Shown here: positions 1,821 through 26,908 of the stretch, one piece after another
Layout of the letters: each line of letters begins with the position of its first letter
How positions within the stretch are numbered: the first letter of the stretch is position 1
Source of the DNA: Nitrososphaerota archaeon
GTDB lineage: Archaea > Thermoproteota > Nitrososphaeria > Nitrososphaerales > Nitrososphaeraceae
DNA: 32,201 nucleotides
Direction: 5' to 3'
NCBI GenBank assembly: GCA_005877075.1
Contig: VBPX01000051.1
Coordinates: 1-32,201 of the forward strand
Notes under the pieces: generated by a model
The model's input: only the letters and a program-made list of their open reading frames with translations
What the model was told of the DNA's origin: nothing
The model's database searches: none
Position numbers and translations under genes: made by a program

Positions 1821-1853
1821 GTTCCGATTGAATATACAGTCATATCCCGACGG
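1821..1853 (+). repeat. Dispersed repeat, type A (copy A1)
   Basis: Pattern GTTCCGA, core TTGAATATACAG, then TCATATCCCGACGG. CCGA and CCGACGG are separated by exactly 19 bases. Sister copies lie at 3622, 7411 and 11978, with degenerate ones at 7942, 21342, 25096 and 26701. Confidence 0.85.
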
Positions 1854-1880
1854 CCCTACCAATATTTTAGGAATCTCAAA

Positions 1881-1905
1881 TTTGTTTCACAAACCACTGA
1901 GTCTG
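1881..1905 (+). repeat. Dispersed repeat, type E (copy E1)
   Basis: TTTGTTTCACAAACCACTGA matches the consensus built from six copies (TTCACAAACCACTGACCC). It sits about 30 bases after repeat A1. Confidence 0.65.
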
Positions 1906-1996
1906 CATAATAATAATAACATTAACTTATAGTTCTGAAATTCATTATTTTATAAATAAATAATTCATTCATTAAAAGTTAACTTATATTGTCTGG

Positions 1997-2431
1997 TTAC
2001 CATCCTGCTATATTCTTTTGACCAATAACTCTGATTGGTTTAATTTTTATCAACAGTTCTCCTTCTGCGCTATTTCTCCTACCATACGCTTCTGACTTAT
2101 TATAACCCATATACCTTGCGGCAATAATTTTAGCCCATTTGTAAACTTCGCTTGGTTCATTACTAATTATTTCTGCTATACCGTCAATAGTAACAAATGA
2201 GAAAAGAGGAGTCTGATCATCAACACATAAACGGACTCGACTGTCACGTCCAATATTTTTTGCCTTTACTGATTCTTCACCTGTATTAAAAATAATATTA
2301 TCATCTTCGTCTAATGTATACCATATCGGAACTACATGTGGTGTCCCATCCTTGTTAATGGTTCCTAATTTACCTGTAAAAGTTCCTTTCAAGAGAAAAT
2401 TTCTGATTTCATCCTTGGTCATTTCGGACAT
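1997..2431 (-). CDS. PPOX-class flavin/F420-binding split-barrel protein
   Basis: 144 residues with the split beta-barrel pattern of the pyridoxamine-phosphate-oxidase-like superfamily. The N-terminal helix 'MTKDEIRNFLLKGTFTGKLGTI' is followed by 'DGTPHVVPIWYTLDEDD' (the typical 'G.P...P.w...' strand pair), 'KAKNIGRDSRVRLCVDD', and a C-terminal 'IKIKPIRVIG' strand. Many archaeal members bind F420 or FMN and reduce small organic molecules; the substrate cannot be told from sequence. ATG at 2431 fits the family start. A second, divergent superfamily member lies at 6893-7339. Confidence 0.85.
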   Translation of the reverse strand: MSEMTKDEIRNFLLKGTFTGKLGTINKDGTPHVVPIWYTLDEDDNIIFNTGEESVKAKNIGRDSRVRLCVDDQTPLFSFVTIDGIAEIISNEPSEVYKWAKIIAARYMGYNKSEAYGRRNSAEGELLIKIKPIRVIGQKNIAGW

Positions 2432-2537
2432 TAGTATTATTAACTACGCAAAATTAATATAATTTATACCATAGAATATCGAAGCATTATTTCTGAACTA
2501 CAAAATTGTGACAAATGGTTCTGGGTTCTTTCATTTT

Positions 2538-2571
2538 GGATCCGAATTGTTAACAATTGGATTCCCGACGG
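2538..2571 (+). repeat. Dispersed repeat, type B (copy B1)
   Basis: GGATCCGA, perfect palindrome ATTGTTAACAAT, then TGGATTCCCGACGG. CCGA and CCGACGG are 19 bases apart. It lies just beyond the 3' end of htpX. Confidence 0.85.
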
Positions 2572-2627
2572 GCCCGTGATAAAATTAGTTCTCTGTGGCA
2601 TGAACGTAGATAAATGCTAATTCGTTA

Positions 2628-3509
2628 TCAGTGCGTGCCAGTCATCATTTCCTTGAGTTTCTGGACTCTTTTTTCAACTGGTGGATGAGTTGAGAAGAGG
2701 TTAGCGATGGAACTCCCTGATAAGGCAGGGATAATAAAGAATGCATTCATTTTCTGTACCTTTTGCAATTCGTTAGCTGGAATCTTGTTCATTCTTCCGC
2801 TTATTTTCATAAGTGCGTCTGCCAATTTATCTGGCCTTCCAGTCATTATTGCACCTCCTCTATCTGCTGAATATTCTCTATATCTGGAAATTGCCCTAAT
2901 TATGAGAAAACTTACCACCCATGTTACTATTGCAACCAGTATTACAATTGCCGTTGCATTTCCACTACCACGATTTCTACTTTGGTAACCGCCAAAAAAT
3001 CCAAATTGAGCGAGATACCATGCAACCGTAGAAAATACGCTAGCTAGTGTCAGAACCAGGACGTCTCGATTTCTAACGTGTGTCAATTCATGTCCTATTA
3101 CTGCTTCGAGTTCTTCATCATCGAGCAGGCCCAGTATACCAGTTGTTACTGCTATTAGGGAGCTCCTGGGGCTTTTCCCTGTGGCAAAAGCATTAGGGAC
3201 GGCTGAATTAACTACAGCTACTTTAGGTTTCGGAATACCATTTTTATTTACGAGGTTTTCAACAATATTATGTAGCTGTGGATATTCCTCTTTTGATACG
3301 ATCTTGGCTCCAGAAGTCCAGAGTACTATCTTATCGGAGAAGTACCATTGCGCCATGATCATACCCCCTGCTATAAAGGCTAGAGGAATGTAACCTACCC
3401 CAAGATAATGTAGTATGCTCAAAAATACCACATATAGAATTCCTAAAATAATGAAGCTAAGGGTCATTCGAGCAGTGAGTCCTGAGTCTCTTTTCCAAGT
3501 GATAGACAT
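2628..3509 (-). CDS. htpX: HtpX-type membrane zinc metalloprotease
   Basis: 293 residues, the normal size for archaeal HtpX (M48 family). The zinc site HELTH is visible (His140, Glu141, His144), and the third ligand is probably Glu212 in 'REYSADRGGA'. Two membrane helices precede the catalytic domain (about 15-35 and 41-58) and two follow it (about 152-172 and 186-206), the usual topology with the active site on the cytoplasmic face. HtpX degrades misfolded membrane proteins, so it belongs to membrane quality control with Hsp20 at 20500. It stands alone: repeat B1 lies past its 3' end and repeat A2 lies upstream. ATG at 3509 gives the expected N-terminus. Confidence 0.95.
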   Translation of the reverse strand: MSITWKRDSGLTARMTLSFIILGILYVVFLSILHYLGVGYIPLAFIAGGMIMAQWYFSDKIVLWTSGAKIVSKEEYPQLHNIVENLVNKNGIPKPKVAVVNSAVPNAFATGKSPRSSLIAVTTGILGLLDDEELEAVIGHELTHVRNRDVLVLTLASVFSTVAWYLAQFGFFGGYQSRNRGSGNATAIVILVAIVTWVVSFLIIRAISRYREYSADRGGAIMTGRPDKLADALMKISGRMNKIPANELQKVQKMNAFFIIPALSGSSIANLFSTHPPVEKRVQKLKEMMTGTH

Positions 3510-3621
3510 TGAATGGTTTAGATATACTATGTACTATTCCTTAATTAAACTAATCTGTTTTATAGGCACAACTCTTCTAGGTCTATCCTAATGTTATCCT
3601 GATACATTCAAATTTGCCAAG

Positions 3622-3654
3622 GTTCCGCAATAATATTCAGTCATATCCCGACGG
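3622..3654 (+). repeat. Dispersed repeat, type A (copy A2)
   Basis: GTTCCGC, AATAATATTCAGTCATATC, CCGACGG. The left end has drifted to CCGC, yet the 19-base spacing is kept. It sits between the htpX start and the 3' end of the gene at 3780. Confidence 0.82.
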
Positions 3655-3779
3655 CTGAACACCAGCCAATTAAAACTTGAGTATCACAGATAATTATCAT
3701 ACAAAGGCAGATTATCGCACTATTATCAAGCTCGATTCATTTGAGATGCCTATATACTATCTTTTGTTATGTACTATTT

Positions 3780-4118
3780 TTAATATGTAAATTGTGCTAA
3801 CTTGTTTCTCATAATACTATCTACATCTTCGGGTTTCAATTTACAGCGAATTACACCTGATGCGTCCACTATTTTGTTAACATACTTTGATTTATAGTTC
3901 TCTTCAACAATTTTGAATTTACCCCTCCCCTTATGTAATATCTTTGCTTCTATTTCTAATCCATCGATAAGGAGAACAGACCAGCAAGAGTATTTTTCCA
4001 TTATTGTACTAGAATCTTCATTGTTATTGTTATATTGTATTGAATAACACTTATCAAAATGAATTGTATCATTATCAGTAATGATTTTTCTTTTGAAATA
4101 ATTGATTATCCACATCAC
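3780..4118 (-). CDS. Hypothetical protein, small beta-rich
   Basis: 112 residues, no recognised family. It starts with a short hydrophobic segment 'MMWIINYF', followed by basic residues, an Asn-rich stretch 'YNNNNED', and alternating strands such as 'WSVLLIDGLEIEAKILHKG' and 'GVIRCKLKPEDVDSIMRNKL'. The last segment is helical. Codon and base composition match its neighbours. The start is ATG at 4118, with a second Met immediately after. It is an isolated gene between htpX and the cupredoxin; no function can be proposed. Confidence 0.6.
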   Translation of the reverse strand: MMWIINYFKRKIITDNDTIHFDKCYSIQYNNNNEDSSTIMEKYSCWSVLLIDGLEIEAKILHKGRGKFKIVEENYKSKYVNKIVDASGVIRCKLKPEDVDSIMRNKLAQFTY

Positions 4119-4262
4119 TTTATCACTTTTGTACCAATAATAAGTATTAAATTCGGAGCTCCCATTATTGATGGGGATGTGTTTGCCATATTCAAGTAAA
4201 AATCAAAATCAAAAAAGAGAGTGGAAGGCGAGACCGCCATTGAACATTACTTCCTATATTCC

Positions 4263-4868
4263 CTATGCAGCTTTTGGCAGGACCAATACCTGGCCAACCA
4301 TGTTAGGTAAATGTACGTGGCAAATGTAGGTTATGGTTCCCGGATTGTTTGCCACAAATGATACTGTGTGTATTTGTCCTCTCATCAGTTCAAAGGTATC
4401 TACTCCTTGAATAGTAATGGCATGGTGTGCTCCTTGGACTCCTATGAAGTGCAGAGTGACTTTATCACCTTGGTTGACTACTATTTGGTCTGGCGAGAAT
4501 GTGAACGATCTGAAGTCCCAAGCTCCGACTTTATTTGGTTCCGTTATTCTGAAACCTCCACCAACAGGAATTGTTGAATTTGCAGGAGGCTGCTCAGCTG
4601 GATGTAGGGGAGTGTTTTGAGGACATGTATCACATTTTATGCCAAGATTCAAGTTTGTGTTTCCATCAAGGTGTACTGTATTTATCCAGAATTCCTTGTT
4701 TGTCGATTGGTTTGGATTGACCATTTTGAATGTTGTCGTATTTTCTGCGAACGTCTTTTGTAGACTTTGGTCACTGGTTGCACTTATTACAGCTGTTACT
4801 GATAGTGCGACCATAAGGGTCGATGCTATCAGCCATTTTTGTTCTGACTTATTTTTTTGGTTATTCAT
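4263..4868 (-). CDS. Exported blue-copper (plastocyanin-like) cupredoxin
   Basis: 201 residues. A signal peptide or anchor occupies about residues 11-31. A low-complexity linker with a Cys pair 'CDTC' (79-82) precedes a cupredoxin domain at about 105-199: 'FSPDQIVVNQGDKVTLHF', 'GAHHAITIQGVD', and the copper loop 'CHVHLPNM'. Likely type-1 copper ligands are His148 or 149, Cys183, His186 and Met190. Ammonia-oxidising archaea carry many such proteins as soluble or membrane-tethered electron carriers; the specific partner is unknown. It is divergent from two small membrane proteins (4982, 5349) with about 110 bases between starts. A C-terminal fragment of a close paralogue lies at 18829-18985. 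Confidence 0.9.
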   Translation of the reverse strand: MNNQKNKSEQKWLIASTLMVALSVTAVISATSDQSLQKTFAENTTTFKMVNPNQSTNKEFWINTVHLDGNTNLNLGIKCDTCPQNTPLHPAEQPPANSTIPVGGGFRITEPNKVGAWDFRSFTFSPDQIVVNQGDKVTLHFIGVQGAHHAITIQGVDTFELMRGQIHTVSFVANNPGTITYICHVHLPNMVGQVLVLPKAA

Positions 4869-4981
4869 TTTCGTACTGGCTGTTCCTTTTATTTTTGATA
4901 TAAACGAAAAGACGAAGCTTAAGTTTGGAATCCAGCTCTGGAGTTCAGATGTGGATTTCGTAGATCTATATTTAAGTTCTA

Positions 4982-5347
4982 ATGCCTATGCATAAGTTAA
5001 AGAATCTCAATGGAGAAGGAAATGGTAATCTAGTTAAATTGATACAATTTGAATATCACTTAATCGATGCCATTTTTTATTTTGCAGGTTTTACAATCCC
5101 AATTTACTTTATCTTGAAGTCAAGAAGTAAAAAGATTGAAGATGATATTCTTGTAAAACTAATGATGTTATTTGCTAGTTTTATGTTAATCCAATTCATT
5201 TATCATATTGCCGGAATGTTAAATCTGAAGCTACTCTCAAAAGGAATTCTCGAACCAATATCTGCAGTGGCTTTAACAATATTTGCAATTATCTATTACT
5301 TTTCAATAAAAAAAATGAAGAGAAAAGAGGAAGAGGCTAGTATCTAA
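4982..5347 (+). CDS. Three-helix membrane protein, unknown function
   Basis: 121 residues with hydrophobic segments at about 29-46, 57-76 and 88-108, and a strongly basic end ('KKMKRKEEE'). Two in-frame ATGs (4982, 4988) could start it. It is divergent from the cupredoxin gene and is followed one base later by another membrane protein of similar size, so the two are almost certainly co-transcribed. No motif ties it to a named family. A role with the neighbouring copper protein at the membrane is only inferred from position. Confidence 0.7.
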   Translation: MPMHKLKNLNGEGNGNLVKLIQFEYHLIDAIFYFAGFTIPIYFILKSRSKKIEDDILVKLMMLFASFMLIQFIYHIAGMLNLKLLSKGILEPISAVALTIFAIIYYFSIKKMKRKEEEASI

Positions 5348-5348
5348 T

Positions 5349-5693
5349 TTGAATCTCGATTTAAATCCAGAATTAATTCCATCTCTGTCTATAATCACAT
5401 CGATTCTTTTTTTAGTATCTTTGGCTTTCTTTGTGCTGTTATCAATTAAATCCAAGAGTATCAGGACTTTCCAATTTCAAATTTCATTATTCATAGGACT
5501 GTATGTTCTAGGAGAGATAATTGAGATCAAAGAGCTCGCTGCATTTTTATCCATACCTGAATCGTTAGGGTCACAAATACATGTTGGTGCAACAATTTTT
5601 CTGACCTTTATTATATGGATTCGATTTTATTATTCCGAAAAAGGTATCAAAAATCTTGTCGATAGCCCTGCTGATACTGATACTCAAAAATAA
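5349..5693 (+). CDS. Membrane protein, partner of the preceding gene
   Basis: 114 residues beginning at TTG 5349, one base after the stop of the upstream gene; no ATG is available in the matching N-terminal region. Helices are predicted at about 13-33, 43-60 and 78-94, then a polar Asp-rich tail. The acidic motif 'GEIIEIKEL' lies between helices. Its size and helix count resemble the preceding protein, so the pair may be diverged duplicates or subunits of one complex. Function unknown. Confidence 0.68.
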   Translation: MNLDLNPELIPSLSIITSILFLVSLAFFVLLSIKSKSIRTFQFQISLFIGLYVLGEIIEIKELAAFLSIPESLGSQIHVGATIFLTFIIWIRFYYSEKGIKNLVDSPADTDTQK

Positions 5694-5710
5694 GATTTCA
5701 TTTTTTGCTT

Positions 5711-6067
5711 TTATTCGATTGAAAGGAATTTTTTCATTACTTTTTTTAGTGCATTAATATTTTCTTCAGCTTCAACGATAATGGTACCATCTTGTTCGTA
5801 CTTGACAGCTATTGACTGAAGGGTAGCATGAACCAAACTCGATTTCTTTCCATCTGGCGTAATTTCAATTCTATCAACCACAAGAAGTCCTTGCTTTAGA
5901 AGCCACTTTGTCTTCCTATATGCCGTGGTGTAAGGGATATTCTGTTCTCTCATGATTGAATTGACTGATTTCGACATGACCATAACTGCATTCAATATCT
6001 TTGTCATATCCTCGTCAGCCAATGCAGCAAGGATTGCCTTTTTCAGAGCTTGAGTCGTAATTATCAT
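5711..6067 (-). CDS. ArsR/winged-helix type transcription regulator
   Basis: 118 residues. Residues about 20-65 form an HTH: 'ILNAVMVMSKSVNSIMREQ' then 'IPYTTAYRKTKWLLKQGLLVVDR', where 'TTAYRKTKWLLKQGLL' is the recognition helix typical of archaeal wHTH proteins. A wing 'ITPDGKKSSLVHATLQSI' and a C-terminal amphipathic helix 'NALKKVMKKFL' (dimerisation) follow. It lies convergent to the membrane-protein pair, 18 bases after its stop. The target is unknown. Confidence 0.85.
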   Translation of the reverse strand: MIITTQALKKAILAALADEDMTKILNAVMVMSKSVNSIMREQNIPYTTAYRKTKWLLKQGLLVVDRIEITPDGKKSSLVHATLQSIAVKYEQDGTIIVEAEENINALKKVMKKFLSIE

Positions 6068-6258
6068 TATTGGCTCCCGAGTTCCATTTTAATTCATACT
6101 GTTCTAATTATTTATGTATTGATGGACCTTGTTACCAATGAAATTGTCATTACAGATGCAATCAAATTTGTTCATCAAAAGAAAGAAGAATTGTCGTGAA
6201 GTTAATGACAATAAGCTATAAACTGTCCCATACAAAATCCTTTGATATATTTTGAAAA

Positions 6259-6669: not shown

Positions 6670-6892
6670 TGTGAGCTAATGAATATAACAGATCAAACAA
6701 AATAAAGTATCTGATAGTAAAATTAGTTCTCTTATGTGGAGGTTGGAAGCGTTATGATGATATAGCTGGTTCTTAATCTAGTAATTTAAATTCATCCTGG
6801 ATCTTAATTTGGAAATCTACCGCAAGAGCAGTTTCATCAACTAATTGCTAAGTTAACTTTATCTTTTGTTAATGCTTACTCTTCAGTGTCAA

Positions 6893-7339
6893 ATGGCAAA
6901 ATCGATATTTACCCAAAAGGAAGTAGAATATCTAAAGTCTCAACGTCTTGCAAGAATAGCTTCAGCTGCAGCTTCTACACAACAAGAAGGATCCGTACAA
7001 CCTGATGTTGTACCTGTTGGGTTTGATTTTGATGGTGAATATCTGTATGTAGGCGGGATGAACCTTCTTAAATCCACAAAATTTAGAAATGTTTTGAAAA
7101 ATAACAAGGTTGCAATGGTGGTTGATGACTTGAAAAGTATCGATCCATGGGATCCAAGAGGTATAAGGATCTATGGCACTGCTGATATTGTTACTCGCCA
7201 AGGAGGTTATATGGAAAACACTGACCACCCCAATCTCCAATATATAAGGGTAAATCCCAAGAAGAAGTGGAGTTGGGGAGTTGAAGAACCTGTATTTGTA
7301 CAAGGAAAGTTCAAGGTTAAAAAAGCAAGGGCAGAATAG
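6893..7339 (+). CDS. PPOX-class F420-dependent oxidoreductase
   Basis: About 148 residues from ATG 6893; the open frame extends back to TTG 6866, but family members start with this 'FTQKEVEYLKSQRLARIAS' helix and a T-rich box near 6856 is better placed for 6893. The split-barrel pattern includes 'PDVVPVGFDFDGEYLYVGG', 'KFRNVLKNNKVAMVVDD', 'DPWDPRGIRIYGTADI', and the C-terminal 'YIRVNPKKKWSWGVEE'. The sequence fits the 'PPOX class F420-dependent' subgroup, in which deazaflavin F420 is the cofactor; the substrate is unknown. It is distinct in sequence from the one at 1997-2431. Confidence 0.85.
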   Translation: MAKSIFTQKEVEYLKSQRLARIASAAASTQQEGSVQPDVVPVGFDFDGEYLYVGGMNLLKSTKFRNVLKNNKVAMVVDDLKSIDPWDPRGIRIYGTADIVTRQGGYMENTDHPNLQYIRVNPKKKWSWGVEEPVFVQGKFKVKKARAE

Positions 7340-7410
7340 TTATTAAAGATAAGTGAAGCCTCCATAGTTCGACTCGGATTATAAACTGGTAAAGCAATTA
7401 ATGGATACAA

Positions 7411-7443
7411 GTTCCGATTGAATATTCAGTCATATCCTGACGG
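7411..7443 (+). repeat. Dispersed repeat, type A (copy A3)
   Basis: GTTCCGATTGAATATTCAG, TCATATCC, then TGACGG (one change from CCGACGG). The spacing is conserved. It lies about 70 bases after the stop of the PPOX gene, and its tail CCTCATTATATTTTAG matches the tail of A4. Confidence 0.85.
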
Positions 7444-7580
7444 CCTCATTATATTTTAGTGTCGTTCTTGATGATGAAAAATATCAAATTTGTTAAGTTT
7501 ATAAAAAATTCCGTTATGAATATACAAATTTAGATCTTGACTACGAAATATTTAGATACAACATAATAAAGAAATAATTT

Positions 7581-7772: not shown

Positions 7773-8091
7773 TTTATTTTTCAGAATTGTTTTAGCATAC
7801 GACTTTATTAAATTATGATAAATACATGGATATGGAAACTGAAATGTATTGAAAATATTCTGGACAAATTACACAATATCTAAATCATCCAAAATTAATG
7901 AAACAAATAAAATTGTATTTGGTTTTTGAAATCCTAATAATGGTCCACTTCAATATTCAATTGTATCCCACTTGAGTTGGATCCGAATTGTTAACAATTT
8001 GGTTCCCGACGGTAAGATGTGAATCCTTTTGTTATCTCACGCAGTCAACCCTATTTCCTTCCATTTGTTGTCGTTGTAGGATTCACAAGCT
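7773..8091. other. Convergent intergenic region with composite repeat
   Basis: No gene is visible between the zinc-ribbon gene and the CHRD gene. It holds the composite A8-B2 repeat at 7942-8012. Confidence 0.6.
7942..8012 (+). repeat. Composite dispersed repeat (degenerate A8 + B2)
   Basis: A degenerate type-A half (GGTCCACTTCAATATTCAA) is followed directly by a full type-B unit from 7979: GGATCCGA, palindrome ATTGTTAACAAT, TTGGTTCCCGACGG. B2 keeps the 19-base spacing. The same A-then-B order occurs at 21342-21400 and 25096-25163. Confidence 0.82.
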
Positions 8092-12010: not shown

Positions 12011-12073
12011 GCTCATTATATTTTAATGTTGATTTTGTAGTGGGAATCGAATTCTACAAAAATTCTATTTAGA

Positions 12074-12197
12074 GTCAAAAATGGTTCACAAATCACTGAC
12101 CCTGTTATATTATATTGCTTCTAAATATTAGTAACTTAGCTCGACAGCATCCTTAAGTACTTGTTTTTAGTTTTTTCCACTGATAATAAGAACGAAA
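12074..12197 (+). repeat. 124-base block repeated at 29890-30015 (contains E3)
   Basis: It starts GTCAAAAATGGTTCACAAAT and ends GATAATAAGAACGAAA. Against 29890-30015 I count about seven substitutions and a two-base longer T run. It carries the type-E motif at 12081-12105. Both copies are immediately followed by a different Cys-rich reading frame. Confidence 0.88.
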
Positions 12198-12198
12198 G

Positions 12199-12372
12199 AT
12201 GGTAGAACAACTTCATTAAGACGAGCTCGAGGATTTAATCTTGTTGATAACAAACTTACATCAAGGAGGAAAAATAAACAAACCTAGACCTACAGCCCTT
12301 GTATGTTCTAGCTGTGGGAACAGCTGTATGGCTGATTCAATTTACTACAATAAATGTGGCCATAAAATATAG
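12199..12372 (+). pseudogene. Broken small zinc-ribbon gene
   Basis: ATG 12199 opens a frame with a TAA after six codons (12217-12219). The same frame then continues for about 50 codons: 'DELEDLILLITNLHQGGKIN', then 'CSSCGNSC' and 'YYNKCGHKI', stop TAG at 12372. The helical start resembles a SHOCT-like segment and the end a zinc ribbon whose second knuckle has lost one Cys (YYNKCG where YCxxCG is expected). The early stop and the lost Cys argue for decay. Restart at TTG 12241 after AAGGAGG-like bases is not possible because that purine run lies downstream. The 124-base repeat abuts its start. Confidence 0.5.
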
Positions 12373-12515
12373 AGATTAACCGGAATAGGTTATTTAATTT
12401 TAAACTCAAATTAATCTTGTGAAAAATAAATGTTAGAGTCATCATATAATGAAATAATGTAATTGGCCATTGATTGCAGCATGAATACGATGACAGTGCT
12501 AATTCGATCTGTTTC

Positions 12516-14252
12516 CTATTCCTGGAGTACTTTATGAATAAACGAAATCGCGATTGATCCTTCGCCGACCGCGGACGCAACACGCTTGACGCTGCCACCT
12601 CGCACGTCACCCACCGCGAAAATCCCCGGCAAACTGGTTTCGAACAGGTACGGCGGACGGGCAAGGGGCCAGCGAGCTGCCATCAGATTTTCTGGCGACA
12701 GGTCAAAACCAGTCTTAATGAAGCCTTGAGTGTCTAGCGCCACGCAGCCGTCGAGCCAATGGGTATTCGGAGTAGCGCCGGTCATGACGAACACGTGCCT
12801 GATCTTGTGCTCTTCAGTCTGACCCGATTGATTGTTTCGCCACCGAACGGACTCGAGGTGATCGCCTCCTTCAAGCGCCAAGATCTCAGTGTGTGGCCGG
12901 AATAGTATCTTAGGAGTCTCTTCGATTCGGCGAATTAGGTAGCGCGACATGCTCTCAACCAAACCCGCAGACCTGACAAGCATGTATACGCGCTTCGTCA
13001 TCTCAGCAAGAAACACGGCAGCCTGACCAGCTGCATTTCCTCCACCAACCACAATCACTTCTCCATCGCACAATTGTGCTTCCACAAATGTCGCACTGTA
13101 ATAGACACCCGCACCTTCAAAACGCGACAAGTTTTCCCATTCTGGCTTCCGATACTCCGCCCCGGTTGCGATAACAACAGTTCGTGCCGGAATTCGATTC
13201 CCATTCTGAACTTCGACGACGTACGGTTTGTTGTTGCAAACGAGTCGCGTGGCCTTGATGATGCGCATCACCGCACCGAACTTTTGTGCCTGATTGTACG
13301 CTCGAGCTGCGAGCTCTTGACCCGAGATACCTGTGGGAAATCCCAAGTAATTTTCGATTCTTGAGCTTGAACCTGCCTGTCCACCAGGCGAGCTCGTTTC
13401 CAGCACCAGTACGTCAAGCCCTTCTGAGGAGCCATACACTGCCGCAGCCAGCCCCGAGGGACCCCCGCCAATGATGACTAGATCGCGCACTTGGATTTGG
13501 TCAATAGATTCGTTGAAGCCGAGGCAGTCCGCAATTTGTTGGTTACCGGGGTTGCGTAACACAATTGTGCCTCGGCAGATCACCACGGGTATCTCGTTGG
13601 TGGTGATACGGAAATTATCTAATAAGCCCTGTATATCAGGATCTTGTTCGAGGTCTAAGAAGGTGTAGGGATGTCCATTGCGCATCAGGAACTCTTTGAT
13701 CCGAAGCGTACCAGATGAATGCGTTGACCCGATGAGCACTACGTCTCCCACGCCAGCCGCCACCAACTCAACCCTGCGTAGAATAAAAGCCCGCATAAGA
13801 ATCTGGCCAAGCTCAGAATCGCTCTGCACCAAAGCTAACATCTGTTGCCGATCAACTTCGATCACCTTACCCTGCTTAGTAACACGCACGCGAAAGATGG
13901 TCCGCCGGCCTGAAAGCGTGCCGACCTCACCAGTGAACTGACCAGATCGATACACGGTGACAAGGGTCTCAACGGCGCCAGGTCCCGATGGGCGCACAAC
14001 CTCTAGTTCGCCGGAGACAACCACAAAGAACGGTACGTTGATTTCTCCCTGCTCATAGAGCACTTCGCCACGCTGGATGGCATGCATTTTTCCGCGTGCT
14101 GTAATGCGGCCAATCTGCGCTGGTGTTAATTTTGGAAATATCTGCTCAACATGAGCTCTGGTTAGCGGAAGTCCCTTGCGTGTATCGTTCATAGGGAATT
14201 TTTCCGAACCATCAGCTTCAGAAATTTCCTTTTTATAAGAATTACCCGGCAT
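12516..14252 (-). CDS. cNMP-binding / thioredoxin-like / FAD-NAD(P) reductase fusion
   Basis: 578 residues in three parts. Residues about 36-150 are a cyclic-nucleotide-binding (CAP/Crp-type) domain ('RGEVLYEQGE', 'FFVVVSGELEV', 'GQFTGEVGTLSGRR'). Residues 171-245 are a thioredoxin/glutaredoxin-like fold with no CxxC. Residues 257-578 form a thioredoxin-reductase-like flavoprotein: FAD loop GGGPSG (262-267), 'ATGAEYRKP', NAD(P) loop GGGNAAGQ (403-410) and 'FAVGDVRGGSVKRVASAVGEGS' near the end. The CxxC redox pair of true thioredoxin reductases is absent: the site reads 'YYSATFVEAQLCDG'. Composition is far more GC-rich than the surroundings (38 of 60 bases G/C at 12601-12660 against 21 of 60 at 15001-15060), and the switch occurs almost at the gene borders, which indicates recent transfer, probably from bacteria. 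Met21 (14192) is an alternative start, in ATGA overlap with the upstream frame, and matches where homology and high GC begin. Confidence 0.93.
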   Translation of the reverse strand: MPGNSYKKEISEADGSEKFPMNDTRKGLPLTRAHVEQIFPKLTPAQIGRITARGKMHAIQRGEVLYEQGEINVPFFVVVSGELEVVRPSGPGAVETLVTVYRSGQFTGEVGTLSGRRTIFRVRVTKQGKVIEVDRQQMLALVQSDSELGQILMRAFILRRVELVAAGVGDVVLIGSTHSSGTLRIKEFLMRNGHPYTFLDLEQDPDIQGLLDNFRITTNEIPVVICRGTIVLRNPGNQQIADCLGFNESIDQIQVRDLVIIGGGPSGLAAAVYGSSEGLDVLVLETSSPGGQAGSSSRIENYLGFPTGISGQELAARAYNQAQKFGAVMRIIKATRLVCNNKPYVVEVQNGNRIPARTVVIATGAEYRKPEWENLSRFEGAGVYYSATFVEAQLCDGEVIVVGGGNAAGQAAVFLAEMTKRVYMLVRSAGLVESMSRYLIRRIEETPKILFRPHTEILALEGGDHLESVRWRNNQSGQTEEHKIRHVFVMTGATPNTHWLDGCVALDTQGFIKTGFDLSPENLMAARWPLARPPYLFETSLPGIFAVGDVRGGSVKRVASAVGEGSIAISFIHKVLQE

Positions 14253-14563
14253 TTAGTTATTCCATTAACAACACGAAAGTTAATGTACCTTTCTTGCGAA
14301 AATGTAGTAATTAGTTTAAGGTCTATAGGCCAAGACGAAAATGGCGTTAGGGATCGATTCACCAATAATTTTACTATTCTCCATTCTGTTATAGATCTGC
14401 TGTTCGTATATTTACTGGCTTGTTCGATGGGGGATTTGCCCTGGAATTCTCGTATTTGCGTACCGGTCCCATTGTTAAATACCATTTCGAGCACGTCGTA
14501 TTCCCCGGTTCCTGACGGCTCGTGACCTAGGATTTTAATCAGCTCCATAGTATGAATTTTCAT
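14189..14563 (-). CDS. Hypothetical protein upstream of the transferred reductase
   Basis: 124-residue frame, ATG at 14563, ending in a TGA that overlaps the internal ATG (14192) of the reductase. The first 70 residues look protein-like ('GTGEYDVLEMVFNNGTG', 'GKSPIEQASKYTNSRSITEWRIVKLL'). The last 40 are basic, hydrophobic and less convincing, and lie where the host-like sequence meets the transferred gene. It may be a host gene whose 3' end was replaced at the insertion junction, or a small gene coupled to the reductase. No family recognised. Confidence 0.42.
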   Translation of the reverse strand: MKIHTMELIKILGHEPSGTGEYDVLEMVFNNGTGTQIREFQGKSPIEQASKYTNSRSITEWRIVKLLVNRSLTPFSSWPIDLKLITTFSQERYINFRVVNGITKCRVILIKRKFLKLMVRKNSL

Positions 14564-14682
14564 TCATTAACTTTCCATTTTCCCAGCAACGGTTATTGTT
14601 CAGTAAGAATCTTTCAAAATGTTATTATCTTTAGTGTACGACGAGAGATCAATACGGATTTTGGAGTCGGAGGACCGTATGT

Positions 14683-15965: not shown

Positions 15966-16197
15966 ATCTTTCTTTACCAACCAGAAATTAAAACGTAACT
16001 TGTTGTTTATAAATTCAATCTATGGTTCGAGATTTCATTCTCTTGCTTGCTATGAAATACCCACAAAGATAGTAAAATATGACATGGATGCAATAAGATT
16101 AATTGGTTATTGTGATGAACATATAATGACTTTAGAAACGGTTGTCGAGTATTATTTCCTTTTAAAACTTAATATTTCATATTGGTTATATTTCTCC

Positions 16198-16479
16198 ATG
16201 GAATTTAATCTGACAGCGAAGGATAAACACGCGCTTAAAAAAGTGGCGATAGATTTGCAGGATATGCTCAATACGAAAAAAGGTGAGGCCCCTGATTACG
16301 AATTCTCAATTGATCTTTCATTCTTTAAACAAGAAGGCAGAGGCCTTGATGCAATTCTCGAGTGGGTTGAAGATTTTAGGAAAAGAATGGATGATGCTGA
16401 GAAAAAACAATCTAAGGAGGAATTAGATTTAGAAGAAAAAGAACTCGTTAATGCTGGATGGATAGTGAGAGTAAGTTAA
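16198..16479 (+). CDS. Small acidic alpha-helical protein
   Basis: 93 residues from ATG 16198. The frame is open upstream to 16000, but an A/T box (CTTAATATTT, about 16170-16179) lies about 25 bases before this ATG, and the upstream residues look non-coding. The protein is highly charged: 'MEFNLTAKDKHALKKVAIDLQDMLN', 'ILEWVEDFRKRMDDAEKKQSKEELDLEEKELVNAGWIVRVS', with a probable coiled coil at about 55-85. A copy of its last codons plus 3' flank is duplicated at 20365-20453. No family recognised. Confidence 0.65.
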   Translation: MEFNLTAKDKHALKKVAIDLQDMLNTKKGEAPDYEFSIDLSFFKQEGRGLDAILEWVEDFRKRMDDAEKKQSKEELDLEEKELVNAGWIVRVS

Positions 16480-16660
16480 AAAATGGAAGCGTAATGAAAA
16501 ATTCGAGAGTTACTTAAGTTATAACTCACGAAAAATACTTGCAATAATCTGAAATAATTGTACAAGTACAGTATAAAAAATTGTGATTATTATTAATTTT
16601 CCCATATTAGTCGCTTTTATGGTAACATTGGAATTTTATTAAACTGCTATTTAGAACAAG

Positions 16661-20364: not shown

Positions 20365-20453
20365 TTAGAAGAAAAAAGAACTCAGTGATGCTGGATGGAT
20401 AGTGAGAGTAAGTTAAAAAATGGAAGCGTAATGGAAAATTCGGAGTTACCTAA
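20365..20453 (+). repeat. Duplicated 3' end of the gene at 16198-16479
   Basis: TTAGAAGAAAAAAGAACTC, then a block shared with 16430-16516 covering the last codons, the stop and about 40 bases of 3' flank. It differs by one extra A (frameshift) and a few substitutions. The rest of the gene is missing, so this is a relic of a duplicate or of an imprecise transposition. Confidence 0.88.
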
Positions 20454-21126: not shown

Positions 21127-21132
21127 TACCAA

Positions 21133-21448
21133 AAATATGAGGAAGAAAGTATTTAATTATTTTGCCAGAATAATATCTAATGTGAAAAAAATCTTCGAAA
21201 TATGTTTTTAGTCGTAGTTTAAACTACAACTAGAGATTATGGATCCGAATTGTTAATAATATGGTTCCCGACGGGCTCATAAAATAACGTTTACTCTTAT
21301 TTGCATCTAATAAAATTCTAGTTTTAGAAATTCTAATTGGTGGTCCGATTAAATATTCAGTTAATATTCTTCGGCTTGAATCCGAATTGTTAATAACGTG
21401 GCACTTGGTTTCAGTCAATACTATTTCGTAATATCATTTCGTTACTGT
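21133..21448. other. Intergenic region largely filled by repeats
   Basis: It contains Hsp20 promoter sequence next to 21126 and then a compound B-tail-A-B repeat array (21241-21400). No gene is visible. Confidence 0.6.
21241..21400 (+). repeat. Compound repeat B3 + tail + A6 + B'
   Basis: B3 (21241-21274: GGATCCGA, ATTGTTAATAAT, ATGGTTCCCGACGG) is followed by a tail GCTCATAAAATAACG with a TTCTA/TAGAA inverted repeat, then a degenerate type A (21342-21373), then a truncated type B (21379-21400). The same B-tail-A order is found at 26601-26735. Confidence 0.82.
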
Positions 21449-21760
21449 TTATATTCCCAACTCTCTGATTGCCTTTTTGAAATCGGGAAGACGTCTTAAA
21501 ATTATTGATAATGCGGTTATCTTTTCAGTATCAGGTATGGGTTTTGCGTATCTTTGCCTATAATTGTCTGCAATCAAATCTAAGGCACTCACCATCACTG
21601 CACCGAGATAGAAATCTGATTTATTAGTTAAACCAAATTCAGTTGTATCTATATTTTCATTACCAAACAGTGAAAAAATAACAGGCGTCATTTCAATTGC
21701 CTTCTCAATATTTTCATTAATGATGTTAATTGAATCATCTTTATTTTCACCCATTAGCAT
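21449..21760 (-). CDS. Hypothetical helical protein
   Basis: 103 residues, ATG 21760 (or 21754, 'MGENKDDS'). It is helical throughout: 'INIINENIEKAIEMTPVIFSLFG', 'DFYLGAVMVSALDLIADNYRQRYAKPIPDTEKITALSIILRRLPDFKKAIRELGI'. Negatively charged N-terminus, basic C-terminus. No family recognised. Repeats follow its 3' end. Confidence 0.65.
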   Translation of the reverse strand: MLMGENKDDSINIINENIEKAIEMTPVIFSLFGNENIDTTEFGLTNKSDFYLGAVMVSALDLIADNYRQRYAKPIPDTEKITALSIILRRLPDFKKAIRELGI

Positions 21761-22367: not shown

Positions 22368-24371
22368 TTAGGTAGTAAAGGAACGATCGGAAATATTAGG
22401 CTTGAAGCCAATTTCCTCTGCAGGGGTTTTAAGTCTGGTTACATCCCGCTTGAAGAATAAGTCTATAATCCAGTCCACTAAAACTCGCAATTTCTTTTCT
22501 ACTGTAGGAAGATTAACTAGATAGTATGAGCGCCAAAACCACCAAGCTGCAAATCCATGAACCTTATGTCCAAGTATTACGCCAACACCATTTCTCTTTC
22601 CTATCAACGTCATAACCCCCTTTGTCTTGTAATCAAATGTTTCTTTATGATTTTCTTGAGCCTTAATTTTAGAGATCAAATTGATTGCAGCAACCTTTCC
22701 CTGTCTTAATGCGTGTTGGGCGGTTGGGGGATAAGGTTTTCCTGTATTAGGATCTGTGACACAGGCACAGTCGCCTAGGGCCATAATACTATCAGTATAT
22801 CCAGCAACTTCAAGGTAATTGTTGGTCATTATTCTACCAGACTTGTCGTGTTCACAAGAAAGAGCGGATAGTAAGGTTTGAGGCTTTCCTCCTCCAGCCC
22901 ATATTATTGTTTGGGTTGTGATAATAGTTCCTTGATCTAGTTTAACATTGTCTGAGGTGACCTCCACCACACGTGTGTTTACAAGCACTGCGAGTCCATT
23001 TTTTCTTATTTCCCGTAAAGCAAAGTCTGCTAGATCCTCAGTTACTTCGGGAAGTATCCTTCCCCCCGAATTTATGAGTATTATTCTTGCATAGGATTTT
23101 TGTAGATTGTGGTAAAAATATTTTATTGAATCTAGTATGAAGTCATTCAATTCGCCGACAATTTCAATGCCAGAAAAACCTCCGCCAACTACCACGAAAG
23201 TCAACAGTCTTTTCCTAAGGTCAATATCTTCATGTTCAATGTCGGCCTGTTCTAACATATTTATCACATGATTGCGTAAGACTATGGCATCGCCAAGGTT
23301 CTTTAGAGTAAAGGCTTGTTTAGCAGCCTCACTCACACCAAAGAAGTTTGTTTCACTTCCTAATGCTAAGACAAGGTAATCGTATTTCAGCATATGACTA
23401 CGCCACTCGATAGGCTTTGTATGCTTTCCGATCCTATGGGTTATAACGACTTCCTTCTTCTCCAGATCAATTGACTCTATCTCTGTTTCATAAAATTTTG
23501 CTCTATTGCAAAAGGCTCTCAGCGGTGTTACTATATGTCTTGTCTCGATCATCCCTGATGATATTTCAGGAAGCATTGGTGTAAAGAGGAAAAAGTTGTC
23601 TCGACTTACCAGTGTTATGTCAATTCTAATATCGTTCTGAAATGTTTTTTGAAGCTGCCGTAAAACTTCTATTCCTGCGAATCCGCCTCCCAAAATTAAA
23701 ATGCGTGTTAATTGAATTGGTTTTTCTCCGTGAATAAGTTCTACATGTTTTTGGTATGAATCGATCCTAGAAAAAGAAATATCACATTTTGTACACCTAT
23801 ATCGGCTGCCAAATTTAATTGATAAAGTAGATGACGTTACTCCTACAGTGATACCGAAAACAAGATGCATAATAATATAACTTACAATCACCAGTGGGAA
23901 GCTATATTGAGATAATGTTGTACCGTATTCATCATAGGTGTATTCATCATAGGATTCTGGCATCGTGTTAGTTAGAATACGGTTGATCTCTGGCTGCAGA
24001 ATTAACAAGTAAACAGGTATGAAAAAAACAATTAGGATTACAGAACCGGCGAATAACCCATAAAGCAAGCCATTTGAAAGCTTACTTATATTCAGTATTC
24101 CAGTTTTATAGAGAAATACTCCGATAACAATGCCTATTGAAATAGCAGTTATTGTATGAATTGCTACTCCTGCAAAAGCTGCGTCAGAAGAGTAGACGCC
24201 TACGACATGTCCAAATGCTAACCATGTAACATAATAAGGCAAGCCCATTCCAACTTCAAAAGCAGTCGGAATAAGCATCGATACTGCTCCTAGCATTGCC
24301 CCTATGACAACAAAGAATACCTCGCGTTTAAGAGAAAAATCTACTCTTATTTCCGTAGTTTTCCTCTTCAT
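22368..24371 (-). CDS. NDH-2-type NADH dehydrogenase fused to a membrane domain and a C2H2 zinc finger
   Basis: 667 residues. Part 1 (about 17-185) holds four or five membrane helices; its 'FFIPVYLLILQPEINRIL' block is shared with the protein at 11273-11818. Part 2 is a canonical C2H2 finger with Cys193, Cys196, His209 and His214 (C-x2-C-x12-H-x4-H). Part 3 (about 221-667) is a type II NADH:quinone oxidoreductase: FAD loop GGGFAGIE (228-235), NADH loop GGGFSGIE (396-403), 'IMALGDCACV' around 529-538, 'PPTAQHALRQG' (quinone-site region) and an amphipathic C-terminal segment. NDH-2 oxidises NADH and reduces quinone without pumping ions; usual length is about 400-450, so the first 220 residues are an addition. 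Start ATG 24371. Single gene. Confidence 0.93.
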   Translation of the reverse strand: MKRKTTEIRVDFSLKREVFFVVIGAMLGAVSMLIPTAFEVGMGLPYYVTWLAFGHVVGVYSSDAAFAGVAIHTITAISIGIVIGVFLYKTGILNISKLSNGLLYGLFAGSVILIVFFIPVYLLILQPEINRILTNTMPESYDEYTYDEYGTTLSQYSFPLVIVSYIIMHLVFGITVGVTSSTLSIKFGSRYRCTKCDISFSRIDSYQKHVELIHGEKPIQLTRILILGGGFAGIEVLRQLQKTFQNDIRIDITLVSRDNFFLFTPMLPEISSGMIETRHIVTPLRAFCNRAKFYETEIESIDLEKKEVVITHRIGKHTKPIEWRSHMLKYDYLVLALGSETNFFGVSEAAKQAFTLKNLGDAIVLRNHVINMLEQADIEHEDIDLRKRLLTFVVVGGGFSGIEIVGELNDFILDSIKYFYHNLQKSYARIILINSGGRILPEVTEDLADFALREIRKNGLAVLVNTRVVEVTSDNVKLDQGTIITTQTIIWAGGGKPQTLLSALSCEHDKSGRIMTNNYLEVAGYTDSIMALGDCACVTDPNTGKPYPPTAQHALRQGKVAAINLISKIKAQENHKETFDYKTKGVMTLIGKRNGVGVILGHKVHGFAAWWFWRSYYLVNLPTVEKKLRVLVDWIIDLFFKRDVTRLKTPAEEIGFKPNISDRSFTT

Positions 24372-24660
24372 TATTAATTACTTCTGGAGCTCCAGATGTC
24401 TGAATACACAAATAAAATGAATGTCAGAGACTTATTAACTTGACAGTTCCCTACATTGTGTCAGGTCAGGATGGTGGTTCTTAACAAGCTTTGCGTAGCC
24501 ACATCAGCATCAAGTATATCCGCTACAAAACTTATTATATAATTTCTGGTCCACCAGCCAGGTCCAGCCAAAGGTTACGAAGAATTAGCTTGAGTTGTAT
24601 GGGATTCATAGCATTTTTTGATCCAATTGAATTCTAAGCAACTGCTATCTGTATGTTATA

Positions 24661-24994
24661 GTATGTGTTCAAAGGCCAAGGTGATAAAGCGCTAGGTTCT
24701 TCCGGTAACATTTATGTTACCTATATTGGTAATAATCGTATTCAAAAGTTTTGTACAAGCCTACCATGTCCAGAAGGTACGACACAAGTCACCTTTGGAG
24801 CATGCCTTATTAGAACGGGGATTTGAAGGTTCGGCTAGCGGGCAGTTTGAGGGCCCAACTAGTGTAGCTATAACCTCTTCAGGAAACGTTCATGTGCTGA
24901 TTCTAGTAATAATCGTATTCAAGTATTTTACTGGTGGACGAGCAACGCTGGAGGTACTGGTGGAGGTAATCAACCTGTTACTGCTACTAGGTAG
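24661..24994 (+). pseudogene. Decayed NHL-repeat (beta-propeller) gene fragment
   Basis: Blade-like segments appear in shifting frames: 'SSGNIYVTYIGNNRIQKF', then (after a frame change and stop) 'GQFEGPTSVAITSSGNVHV', then (after another shift) 'DSSNNRIQVFYWWTSNAGG', stop TAG at 24992-24994. These match the NHL pattern 'G.f..P..vAvdssGnvyVaD..NnRIQvF'. At least two frameshifts, so it is a relic. It is on the opposite strand from the larger NHL relic at 26909-27942. Confidence 0.75.
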
Positions 24995-25095
24995 AATGAA
25001 ACCGCTTTATTTATTTAATTTAGTTTATCCAATTCTAAAGTTGTAAAATTTGTGCAAAGATGATTCCAACTCCATAAAGCCAAATTCTAACTAGT

Positions 25096-25163
25096 GTTCC
25101 GATTGATATTCAGTCATACTCCTTTGATTGGATCCGAATTGTTAACAATTTGTTCCCCGACGG
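25096..25163 (+). repeat. Composite dispersed repeat (A5 + B)
   Basis: GTTCCGATTGATATTCAGTC (type A with one base lost) is followed by a type-B unit from 25130: GGATCCGA, ATTGTTAACAAT, TTGTTCCCCGACGG, spacing 19. It lies upstream of the gene at 25262, and a longer frame for that gene would have to read through it. Confidence 0.82.
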
Positions 25164-25261
25164 TATTCGAAATTTATTCCCTAATTGCTCATAAGCTTTC
25201 GAAGGTCGCAGGAAACGAAAACGATATCAAACTAATATATGCGATACAAGACATTGCTTTA

Positions 25262-25933
25262 ATGGTAATATTCAACATATCCGGAACGTGGAATAATGGT
25301 CATAACAGAAGTTTCAGAGGATTTGATCCTGATGATGATAAAGTCGAAGTACGCGCTAATGGTAACACTCCATGCATGATAGACGGTAACGGTAATTGTA
25401 CGATTACTGGAGATAGGCGAAGAATTTATTGTCACTATAATAATTATAACGCTATACTTACCGTTACATTGATACCACACTTTGCAGGTACGAATGACAA
25501 CTGTTCATTGAAAATGAGGTCAAGGCATAACGAACCAGGTATGACATGCAAAGGAGGTAGTCCGCTAGATGGTAATAGATTCGGTGGATATGGATTTGCC
25601 GTAAACAAAATCGGATGGGATGCAAAGAGAGAATCTACACACAACTGCCATGACCAGCACAAGTCAGATTCAATTCCAAAGAAAATACAAAATGAGAAAG
25701 CAGTAAAGTTACGGCAGACAGTTAAAGATGAAGGCGGAATGGTGCATCAAATAGGTGAGATTGACTATATGGATGGAAAGGGTCTTCATAAAGTAATGGA
25801 CTTTTTCGATAATTCACCCGAACCCTGGATGGTAGATAGAAACCTGTATGAGGCAAAGTCATACTTTTGGGTAAGAAATAATGGTTCTGGCTCCATTACA
25901 ATCAGAGATGTCAGCTTAGAAATTCTTCTATAA
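25262..25933 (+). CDS. Beta-rich protein, possibly a surface glycan-binding or lyase-like fold
   Basis: 223 residues from ATG 25262; the frame extends to 25094 but that part covers the A5/B repeat, so it is unlikely to be coding. It is strand-rich with 'GTWNNGHNRSFRGFDPDDDK', 'LKMRSRHNEPG', 'NRFGGYGFAVNKIGWDAKRE', and an end 'AKSYFWVRNNGSGSITIRDVSLEI'. The 'RSRH' plus 'RFGGYGFAV' pattern and the final strand are reminiscent of jelly-roll carbohydrate-active proteins, but I cannot name a family. Six or so Cys are scattered. No signal peptide is visible with this start, so a true start further upstream or a cytoplasmic location remains open. Confidence 0.62.
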   Translation: MVIFNISGTWNNGHNRSFRGFDPDDDKVEVRANGNTPCMIDGNGNCTITGDRRRIYCHYNNYNAILTVTLIPHFAGTNDNCSLKMRSRHNEPGMTCKGGSPLDGNRFGGYGFAVNKIGWDAKRESTHNCHDQHKSDSIPKKIQNEKAVKLRQTVKDEGGMVHQIGEIDYMDGKGLHKVMDFFDNSPEPWMVDRNLYEAKSYFWVRNNGSGSITIRDVSLEILL

Positions 25934-25950
25934 TTTTGTATTTTTAAGGT

Positions 25951-26517
25951 TTAGTTTGTTATCCTAATAGGATTGATAAATATCCACTTTGCTTCATCAA
26001 AAGACATATCAATAACAATTTTATAATTTTGGAATTGTGCATCATTTGGTATGGTGAAATTAAAATCTGCACATTGTTGAATAGATAGAGTACCGCATTC
26101 ATTATTTTCCAATTCTACACTTGGTATAGAATTCTTCGCAATTTCATCATCTTCCGCATCACTCTTAACTAGATAGATTTTGGTTAGCAAGGGACCTACA
26201 CTCGTACCGCATTCATCGTTACTATCACATTCTAATTCTAGAGATGAGCCATTTACTTTTTTGTCTAATGTCATGTTCTTAACTGACTTGGCATCAAAAT
26301 TTTTTTGGATTACTGTTTCATCTCCAAAGTCAATTGAAAAATCAGCGCCCAATCTGTATTCACGATTATCTGTACTGATTTTAGTTATTGGTATATTATC
26401 AAATGGAACAGTGGCAAATTTAGCAGCATCAACGTGAATTAGCTGCAAAGCAATAAAATTGATAATCAAGAACAAAATGGTGCTAAATAATAGAATATAG
26501 CCGTTTCTTGTTGTCAT
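25951..26517 (-). CDS. Exported hypothetical protein
   Basis: 188 residues, ATG 26517. A signal peptide or anchor lies at about 7-32 ('ILLFSTILFLIINFIALQLIHVDAA'). The mature part is polar and strand-rich. Five Cys are placed as 'CDSNDEC', 'NNECG' and 'QQC', allowing two disulfides. It is convergent with 25262-25933 (18 bases between stops). No family recognised; probably a cell-surface protein. Confidence 0.7.
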   Translation of the reverse strand: MTTRNGYILLFSTILFLIINFIALQLIHVDAAKFATVPFDNIPITKISTDNREYRLGADFSIDFGDETVIQKNFDAKSVKNMTLDKKVNGSSLELECDSNDECGTSVGPLLTKIYLVKSDAEDDEIAKNSIPSVELENNECGTLSIQQCADFNFTIPNDAQFQNYKIVIDMSFDEAKWIFINPIRITN

Positions 26518-26908
26518 CCATGTATAATAAACAAGTAATTAAATAAATTTTGTCCATTATAATCAAATACTTAAGACCAAATGAAGTTTGTCGTCATTAT
26601 GGAACCGCACTGTTAACAACACCAATCCCGACTGGCTCATAAAATAACGTTTCCTCTTATTCATATCTAATAAAATTCTAGTATTAGAAATTCTACTTAT
26701 GGGCCACTTGAATATTCAGTCAAAATCCTTTTGGTTGATATTTAATTTTTATAACGTATTTTGAAACCGGTAACATATAATCGCCTATATATTACAATTT
26801 GCGTCCATATTATCCTTTGATTTGGTAACAATTATTTAAATCTTCCAAGATAAGGACCAAGTAGTTATGATTGGACAAAGGTGTGTTATCACCTATATTA
26901 CCATCTTT
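26518..26908. other. Intergenic region with compound repeat
   Basis: No gene is visible. It holds the B4-tail-A7 repeat (26601-26735) and A/T-rich sequence. Confidence 0.55.
26601..26735 (+). repeat. Compound repeat B4 + tail + A7
   Basis: B4 (26601-26636: GGAACCGCACTGTTAACAAC, ACCAATCCCGACTGG) has drifted in sequence but keeps the 19-base spacing. The tail GCTCATAAAATAACG with the TTCTA/TAGAA inverted repeat is nearly identical to 21275-21340. A7 (26701-26735) follows. Confidence 0.82.

Follow-up and report, generated by a model that had tools for sequence, protein, structure and literature searches.

In Dehalococcoides, according to passages of PMC3146451, ssrA islands lie in tandem downstream of a single RNA gene and are flanked by 20-bp direct repeats of its 3' end; a conserved 15-bp motif sits just upstream of each repeat, all repeats fall within 100 kb, and 15 of the 31 islands have no integration module and were proposed to be possible cis-mobilizable elements. 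Integrated elements of thaumarchaea target the 3' ends of transfer RNA (tRNA) genes, with attachment sites of median 17 bp and reported tandem reuse of sites (passages of PMC6563490); such elements at tRNA genes also appear in parts of PMC8371274. Archaeal integrons use IntI and attC sites, the latter folding as a single strand (passages of PMC9668308). Here we analyzed a 32,201-nt stretch of a Nitrososphaeraceae contig (VBPX01000051.1, positions 1 to 32,201, assembly GCA_005877075.1), referred to as the window. In it, a sequence-only reading had noticed nine copies of a short dispersed element, each with a CCGA-type left box and a CCGACGG-type right box held 19 bases apart around one of two palindromic cores (types A and B). 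We conclude that these copies are very probably attachment-site junctions produced by serial integration (accretion) at a tRNA-Lys gene, which form an integron-like array of units that mostly have no recombinase of their own.

In the mechanism we propose, the array would have grown in tandem at the 3' end of the tRNA-Lys(UUU) gene, and each copy would mark one junction. The right half of a junction would be the tRNA 3' end (the 3' strands of the T-stem and acceptor), which would serve as the integration target. The left half would be the end, or 'P arm', of the previously integrated unit, with A, B and two further types, D and E, as arm families. A tyrosine recombinase would join the tRNA-like core of a circular unit to tRNA-Lys or to a core already in the array. 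Because recombination would run from core to core, units would join head to tail in one direction and their neighbors would be exchangeable. Cargo would range from no gene at all to one or a few genes per unit; as the window has no recombinase gene, units would be moved in trans or be relics.

The pattern CCG[AC]-N19-C[CT]GAC matched the window nine times, always on the plus strand, compared with a mean of 0.17 and a maximum of 2 in 100 dinucleotide shuffles. All nine copies noticed earlier are thus present at the start positions given for them, with the CCG proper 3–4 bases further on; only the assignment of the CCGACTGG variant needed correcting, as it belongs to the copy at 26601 (B5) and not to that at 25130 (B4). 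All copies share one orientation, a point absent from the sequence-only reading, as are the additional left-arm types and the tRNA origin of the right box described below. Eight of the nine lie outside open reading frames (ORFs) of at least 90 aa, and the copy at 25130 overlaps one unverified ORF. The whole 1.97-Mb genome (123 contigs) gave 14 exact matches; every one has an A or B core, and 9 lie on the contig of the window. A wider pattern, CCGA-N6..36-CCGACGG, gave 21 matches genome-wide: 11 A or B copies at N19, a second match to one A copy (from a CCGA lying more to the left), a B copy with N20 (C44:8133), three arms of the E type at N14, one of the D type and four others. The exact B 19-mer occurred in 17 stretches of the GTDB r220 collection, 2 of them bacterial; the other 15 belong to assemblies with the titles Nitrososphaeraceae, Nitrososphaerales, Nitrososphaeria or Thaumarchaeota. 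With up to 2 mismatches, it was found in 10 of 12 genomes of the window's genus and, at one or two copies per genome, in 9 of the family's 58 other genomes, while the reversed 19-mer, used as a control, matched in 4 of the 70 family genomes. Counts of core-like 15-mers (at least 10 matches) in the window did not by themselves distinguish signal from chance (14 on the plus and 9 on the minus strand; Markov control mean 8.3, maximum 13); to see the signal, the left arms are required.

The right box (TCCCGACGGGCCCG) is the 3' end of the tRNA-Lys(UUU) gene of the window's genus. On contig C130 of genome G006, the tRNA gene (Rfam, 58.8 bits) terminates in CTCGGGTTCGAATCCCGACGGGCCCG, its end being also given as ATCCCGACGGGCCCG. 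ARAGORN labels this gene 'tRNA-Stop', owing, as we read it, to an intron in the anticodon loop; we read the gene as Lys(UUU). Genes 99% identical to it are present in G001 and in the window's own genome (G000, contig C93). B sites, which were collected without using the core, matched the last 14 nt of the tRNA at a mean of 10.1 positions, and 20 of 45 reached at least 11 matches, compared with 37 of 20,000 random positions. For E and R types such core-match scores are in part circular; for B they are not. On the 5' side of tRNA-Lys, G000, G001 and G006 share homology that extends to 10 bases past the core start, after which the three genomes have three different right sides (between G001 and G006, homology runs 20 bases past the core start). 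Directly 3' of the gene, G000 has an A arm from ∼43 bp, G001 a recombinase gene from ∼9 bp and G006, in our reading, a B-like half site. Block 6843–7457 of the window (a gene plus site A3) is 87% identical to part of G006 contig C130, and both end 20 bases past the core start. D arms were also followed by CCCGATGAACCC and once by CCCACTGGCCCCA (e.g. L064 at ∼2235, L135 4585, L154 7683). Judged by sequence, these look like other tRNA ends, and CCCACTGGCCCCA matches tRNA-like sequence in G011. Hence the targets of D-type units may include more than one tRNA, and arrays may exist at tRNA genes other than tRNA-Lys.

Because the bins of the window's genus are fragmented, we turned to other genera in whose genomes tRNA-Lys was found. 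A sister genus has three genomes in single contigs (G018, G019 and G020). In each of these we searched six 20-kb stretches, at 0–100 and 120–140 kb downstream of tRNA-Lys, for sites of the D type and of a further palindromic type (ATTCAACCTTGAAT..ATCCCCACG). Sites oriented as tRNA-Lys numbered 32, 35 and 45, respectively, and opposite ones 0, 3 and 0 (112 versus 3 in total), the three exceptions all lying in one 20-kb stretch of G019. No site fell in 240 kb of control sequence (12 stretches, among them the 20 kb upstream of each genome's tRNA-Lys); control shuffles for these scans keep base composition only. The numbers stayed the same in a recount that searched both strands for seeds and merged overlapping hits, and the 80–140 kb part, which was not used for seeds, gave 38 versus 3. 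Median site spacing was ∼1.6 kb. Sites thin out beyond 60 kb in G018 and reach the 120–140 kb stretch in G019 and G020. G016, of the same genus, had 15 sites in 40 kb, all oriented as tRNA-Lys. An earlier strand count of 140 versus 2 had some sites under two types and used contigs pre-turned to the majority strand, so the orientation claim rests on G018–G020, where tRNA-Lys sets the direction. Moreover, the core follows the tRNA of each genus. In the sister genus, whose tRNA-Lys T-stem reads CCCCAC, 11 of 16 D sites have CCCACG and none CCGACG; in the window's genus, where the tRNA reads CCCGAC, 7 of 15 have CCGACG and none CCCACG. (The D pattern in this count is one base too long and its matches end one base late, which leaves the comparison of genera unaffected.) The strongest evidence for serial integration at tRNA-Lys is this covariation, combined with the orientation of sites relative to the tRNA.

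We then considered the left arms. Across 40 contigs and stretches of the genus, spacing was N19 in all 21 A copies and in 38 of 40 B copies that keep the core, the two exceptions being N20 and N26; besides these, 9 B-like and 17 A-like arms had no recognizable core within 20 bases. Exchangeable palindromes at fixed spacing, as first described, thus hold across the genus. The A and B arms are 28-bp palindromes, unrelated to each other in sequence, as had been noticed; they are not the only partners of the right box, which at least two more left arms share, D (AAAGCTAAATACC..AGAACCCTA.TACATG.AGGG..) and E (..CGATAGCGTCGTGGGTACCGACGG). In a list of TCCCGACGGG-like cores from the contigs examined (53 rows, some unrelated), at least four left arms precede the same right box. 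The sister genus has a third palindrome, ATTCAA-CC-TTGAAT, which is unrelated and imperfect and lies, by eye, at the same distance from the core: in all three palindromes the center is 10 nt before the ATCC of the tRNA core. The D arm has only a partial inverted repeat, at another distance. The fixed distance of the palindromes from the core suggests that they may be binding sites of the recombinase or of an accessory protein. To the right of the core, modules R1 to R4 recur, and one module may follow different left arms. In 7 of 10 R1-like matches an A arm follows after ∼90 bp, forming a geneless unit (R1-A); two of the seven are one place on two overlapping contigs (L059/L063, 217-bp overlap at contig ends) and were counted twice.

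These data bear on the function first proposed for the element, an operator at which a regulator binds the palindromes and one protein reads both CCGA boxes on one face of the helix. Palindromes at fixed spacing would suit an operator, as would the location of four of the nine window copies 84–113 bp upstream of a minus-strand ORF start, but four other copies lie between convergent ORFs, so that position relative to gene starts is inconsistent. The right box cannot be taken for an operator half-site, because it is tRNA-Lys 3'-end sequence common to the unrelated A, B, D and E arms and varies with each genus's own tRNA. An operator would also leave unexplained why sites share the orientation of tRNA-Lys over 100 kb, and why cross-genome homology breaks at the core above chance (see below). 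We consider an operator highly improbable. Similarly little weight goes to a dispersed repeat of the kind of miniature inverted-repeat transposable elements or repetitive extragenic palindromes, mobilized by a transposase. The recurrence of geneless ∼90-bp R1-A units is what such a repeat would predict, but we recognized no target duplication, orientation is nearly single, the core follows the host tRNA and the 240 kb of control sequence had no copy. The alternative offered by the sequence-only reading, the core of a non-autonomous mobile element, came close; the copies are best read as junctions between consecutively integrated units.

Right-hand neighbors were seen to change at the core. We placed 121 sites in the 40 contigs and stretches and compared homologous cross-genome blocks of at least 200 bp. 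Of 313 block ends, 25 were no more than 40 bp from a site, versus a random mean of 7.7 and a maximum of 16 in 1000 draws; the 313 ends are not independent, as each alignment was counted from both sides. One cassette, found in L066 (G006) and in L148 and L036 (both G009), ends at one and the same B core, beyond which all three differ. Likewise, three different right sides follow an E-ended cassette shared by L069/L071, L149 and L065. Array segments may also have moved between species. A 2195-bp segment is 96% identical between G000 and G001, while long backbone pieces compared were 77% and 82% identical (two short backbone pieces at a tRNA gene, 90–95%). In G001, this segment begins directly after CCCGACG; its other edges are away from any core. 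Array segments of G001 and G006 are 95.6–97.4% identical, versus 79–83% for the backbone. G001 and G004 are close relatives (97%) and thus uninformative here, and misbinning of array contigs is a real caveat on the high identities, since the genomes are metagenome bins. As a separate observation, ∼880 bp of L069 (2497–3375, array orientation) are absent at L071 4245–4254, in genomes 97% identical; a 10-bp repeat marks the edges of this difference, which lies inside the array and away from recognized cores. The 11–6–11 look of A and B led us to consider the chromosome-dimer site dif, a candidate rejected because block ends cluster at the tRNA core, not at the palindrome center. A and B may themselves be recombinase sites.

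A candidate recombinase, from a divergent family of tyrosine recombinases, lies beside tRNA-Lys in several relatives. P0001, a 424-aa protein of G001, has weak family matches (PF02899, below cut-off) and no match in NCBIfam, PHROG or PDB. In 5 of 5 aligned members of its family, R, K, H, R, H and Y are invariant, which we take to be the catalytic set expected of tyrosine recombinases. Relatives of P0001 occur in 54 of the 70 family genomes. Among the members listed, and with the 45 genomes that have a tRNA-Lys match of at least 85% identity as the base, at least seven genomes have a same-strand member at a distance of 9–138 bp 3' of tRNA-Lys: G001 (the window's genus), G016, G019, G025 (broken by a stop), G055, G056 and G058. 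In G016, a D arm with the tRNA-Lys end follows 17.1 kb on; G020 has a member ∼14 kb downstream of tRNA-Lys on the opposite strand. When 20 recombinase loci of relatives (L090, L116–L134) were scanned for sites, only that at G009:C115 had a convincing one. These data suggest that recombinases of the P0001 family may act on the sites described here, with the palindromes as their predicted binding sites.

The position and type of this recombinase also matter for whether the array is a true integron, in which an IntI integrase would move attC sites. Reminiscent of integrons are the shared orientation of sites, the short gene units, the changed neighbors and the scale of the array. Yet attC sites carry R and L boxes, whereas the core here is tRNA 3'-end sequence; no attC boxes were seen, and on inspection the arms look too short for an attC fold. 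The recombinase beside tRNA-Lys either matches no NCBIfam model (P0001) or gives a weak XerA-like match far below cut-off (G016), and neither matched an integron integrase. For the recombinase of G009:C115, the score against TIGR02249 was 23 bits, versus a cut-off of 265 bits. We therefore regard a true integron as very unlikely.

Several observations weigh against serial integration at tRNA-Lys, or limit how far it reaches. Most block ends (288 of 313) are not at a site, and ordinary rearrangement also acts, because some shared genes, those for an NHL protein and Hsp20, are inverted relative to sites in other genomes. Neither a circular form nor an empty/filled pair within a species was seen. 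We found tRNA-Lys in only 3 of the 12 assemblies of the window's genus, all fragmented, versus a match in 42 of 58 other family genomes; array repeats at tRNA-Lys may break assemblies in this genus. In the window's own genome, tRNA-Lys and the window lie on separate contigs of the assembly. ORF scans recognized no recombinase gene in the window. Its genome gave only five P0001-family fragments, with no member beside its tRNA-Lys, and a PF00589 search there gave one weak partial match (two in a second search). In G001, no recognized arm lies beyond the recombinase gene in the 6 kb examined, and exact A, B and D patterns had 0 matches each in a viral collection. With the sister-genus models, G017 (same genus as G018–G020) had no site in 20 kb, and, in other genera, G037 and G038 had one each in 40 kb and G054, G041, G013, G015 and G036 none in 20 kb each, so that long arrays were seen here in no genus but the window's and its sister genus. 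G037 (single contig) does have a copy of the tRNA end 16.2 kb downstream of tRNA-Lys.

Part of this evidence could point to a dead relic, an old and decayed accretion of integrative elements later shuffled by homologous recombination between repeats. The window's genome has recombinase fragments only, and many sites are degenerate. On the other hand, some array segments are 95–97% identical between species, with the backbone mostly at 77–83% (a difference that misbinning could produce), and one such segment begins directly after CCCGACG. Repeats of ∼40 bp are short substrates for homologous recombination, and recombinase genes without stops adjoin tRNA-Lys in six other genomes. A relic is the alternative we take most seriously, though we think it unlikely. 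Serial integration into an array that is probably still active fits these data better.

Sites and units recognized in the window are collected in Table 1.

Table 1. Junction sites, arms and geneless units in the window
Feature	Start	End	Strand	Description
Site A1	1820	1857	+	28-bp A arm and tRNA-Lys 3'-end core
Site B1	2538	2576	+	28-bp B palindrome and core TTCCCGACGGGCCCG (14/15 versus tRNA-Lys 3' end), then R2 module
Site A2	3621	3654	+	Drifted A arm and core
Site A3	7410	7448	+	
A arm and site B2	7942	8012	+	Degenerate A arm (7942–7968), then B2 (7979–8012)
D-type site	8771	8834	+	Right side CCCCATGAACCCG
D-type site	10095	10152	+	Core ATCCCGACGC
Site A4	11977	12015	+	Core ATCCCGACGGGCTCA
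E-type site	14802	14872	+	Degenerate (GATAGCTCGTGGGTACCGATG)
D-type site	15720	15775	+	Degenerate
Site B3	21241	21279	+	
R1-A unit	21269	21369	+	Geneless, ∼90–100 bp, core to end of next A arm (21342–21369)
B arm	21378	21405	+	Degenerate, directly behind A arm of first R1-A unit
E-type site	21982	22039	+	Core TACCGACGGGCC
Composite	25096	25163	+	A arm (25096–25123) and site B4 (25130–25163)
Site B5	26601	26639	+	CCGACTGG variant
Second R1-A unit	26629	26727	+	

The proteins encoded in the window are an ordinary accessory mix, e.g. CHRD, Usp, cupredoxin-like, M48 peptidase, Hsp20 and NDH2-like. An Rfam scan of the window gave no match, and we rejected a structured RNA as an explanation of the element. 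A ∼140-bp stretch occurs twice (12073–12215 and 29889–30033), 93% identical over 104 bp. It begins with the motif CAAAnnTGnTTCACAnA, which is also present at 1877, 10001 and 14914; since a similar motif precedes the core in L058 at ∼2440, it may be another unit end. A 70-bp repeat, 94% identical, lies at 16436–16505 and 20373–20442, the first copy spanning the end of ORF 16000–16479; it is possibly a partial gene duplication. Positions 12516–14252 encode a thioredoxin-reductase-like protein with a cyclic-nucleotide-binding domain, probably a recent import given its G+C content (52.7%, versus 34.4% for the window outside 12300–14600). Two adjacent 2-oxoglutarate/Fe(II) oxygenases (Oxygenase-NA, 2OG-FeII_Oxy_2) at 28245–29698 are possibly a DNA-damage repair pair.

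Major soil nitrifiers belong to the Nitrososphaeraceae, whose ways of acquiring accessory genes are poorly understood; small units arrayed in one direction at a single tRNA gene would offer a concrete route. We tentatively propose, as a broader generalization, that these soil archaea may possess an integron-like gene-collecting platform that uses tRNA-Lys instead of attI, with arrays of at least 100 kb of small gene units, each ending in one of several exchangeable palindromic arms that keep a fixed distance to the tRNA core; dedicated tyrosine recombinases would assemble these arrays and reshuffle them, even across species. Such an array may explain assembly breaks in these regions. An arm joined to the tRNA 3' end would provide a sequence handle for exchanged genes in metagenomes, and the array makes it testable whether double-strand, tRNA-type sites support integron-like cassette shuffling.

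By layout, the Dehalococcoides ssrA islands, as far as the cited passages describe them, are the nearest case. Here too, junctions are direct repeats of the 3' end of an RNA gene, downstream of it and co-oriented (in the sister-genus genomes), with a recombinase adjoining the RNA gene. Dehalococcoides is a bacterium with kilobase islands at the transfer-messenger RNA gene and Ccr-type recombinases, which are of the serine type, whereas these archaea have tRNA-Lys and a tyrosine recombinase family. Several exchangeable arms, geneless ∼90-bp units and 32–45 sites per genome in the 120 kb examined further distinguish the array from the islands. The cis-mobilizable elements and accretion named in PMC3146451 likewise involve units bounded by attachment sites without recombinase genes; for the units described here, mobilization is a proposal. 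Thaumarchaeal elements share the archaeal group, the tRNA 3' ends and the short sites; main-text passages of PMC6563490 describe 74 separate multigene elements and do not mention a long tRNA-Lys array of small units. In the literature searched, which covered sources other than subscription papers and supplements, no account of an array at tRNA-Lys turned up for these archaea. Like integrons, as portrayed in passages of PMC9668308, the array has an anchor site, co-oriented sites and small gene units, and integron arrays too are often without a recombinase (clusters of attC sites lacking integron integrases, CALIN). Unlike integrons, it has tRNA-derived cores and a candidate recombinase inside the array, 3' of the anchor. 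The array thus works like an accretion array and is integron-like in scale and layout; by the tests made, it is not an integron.

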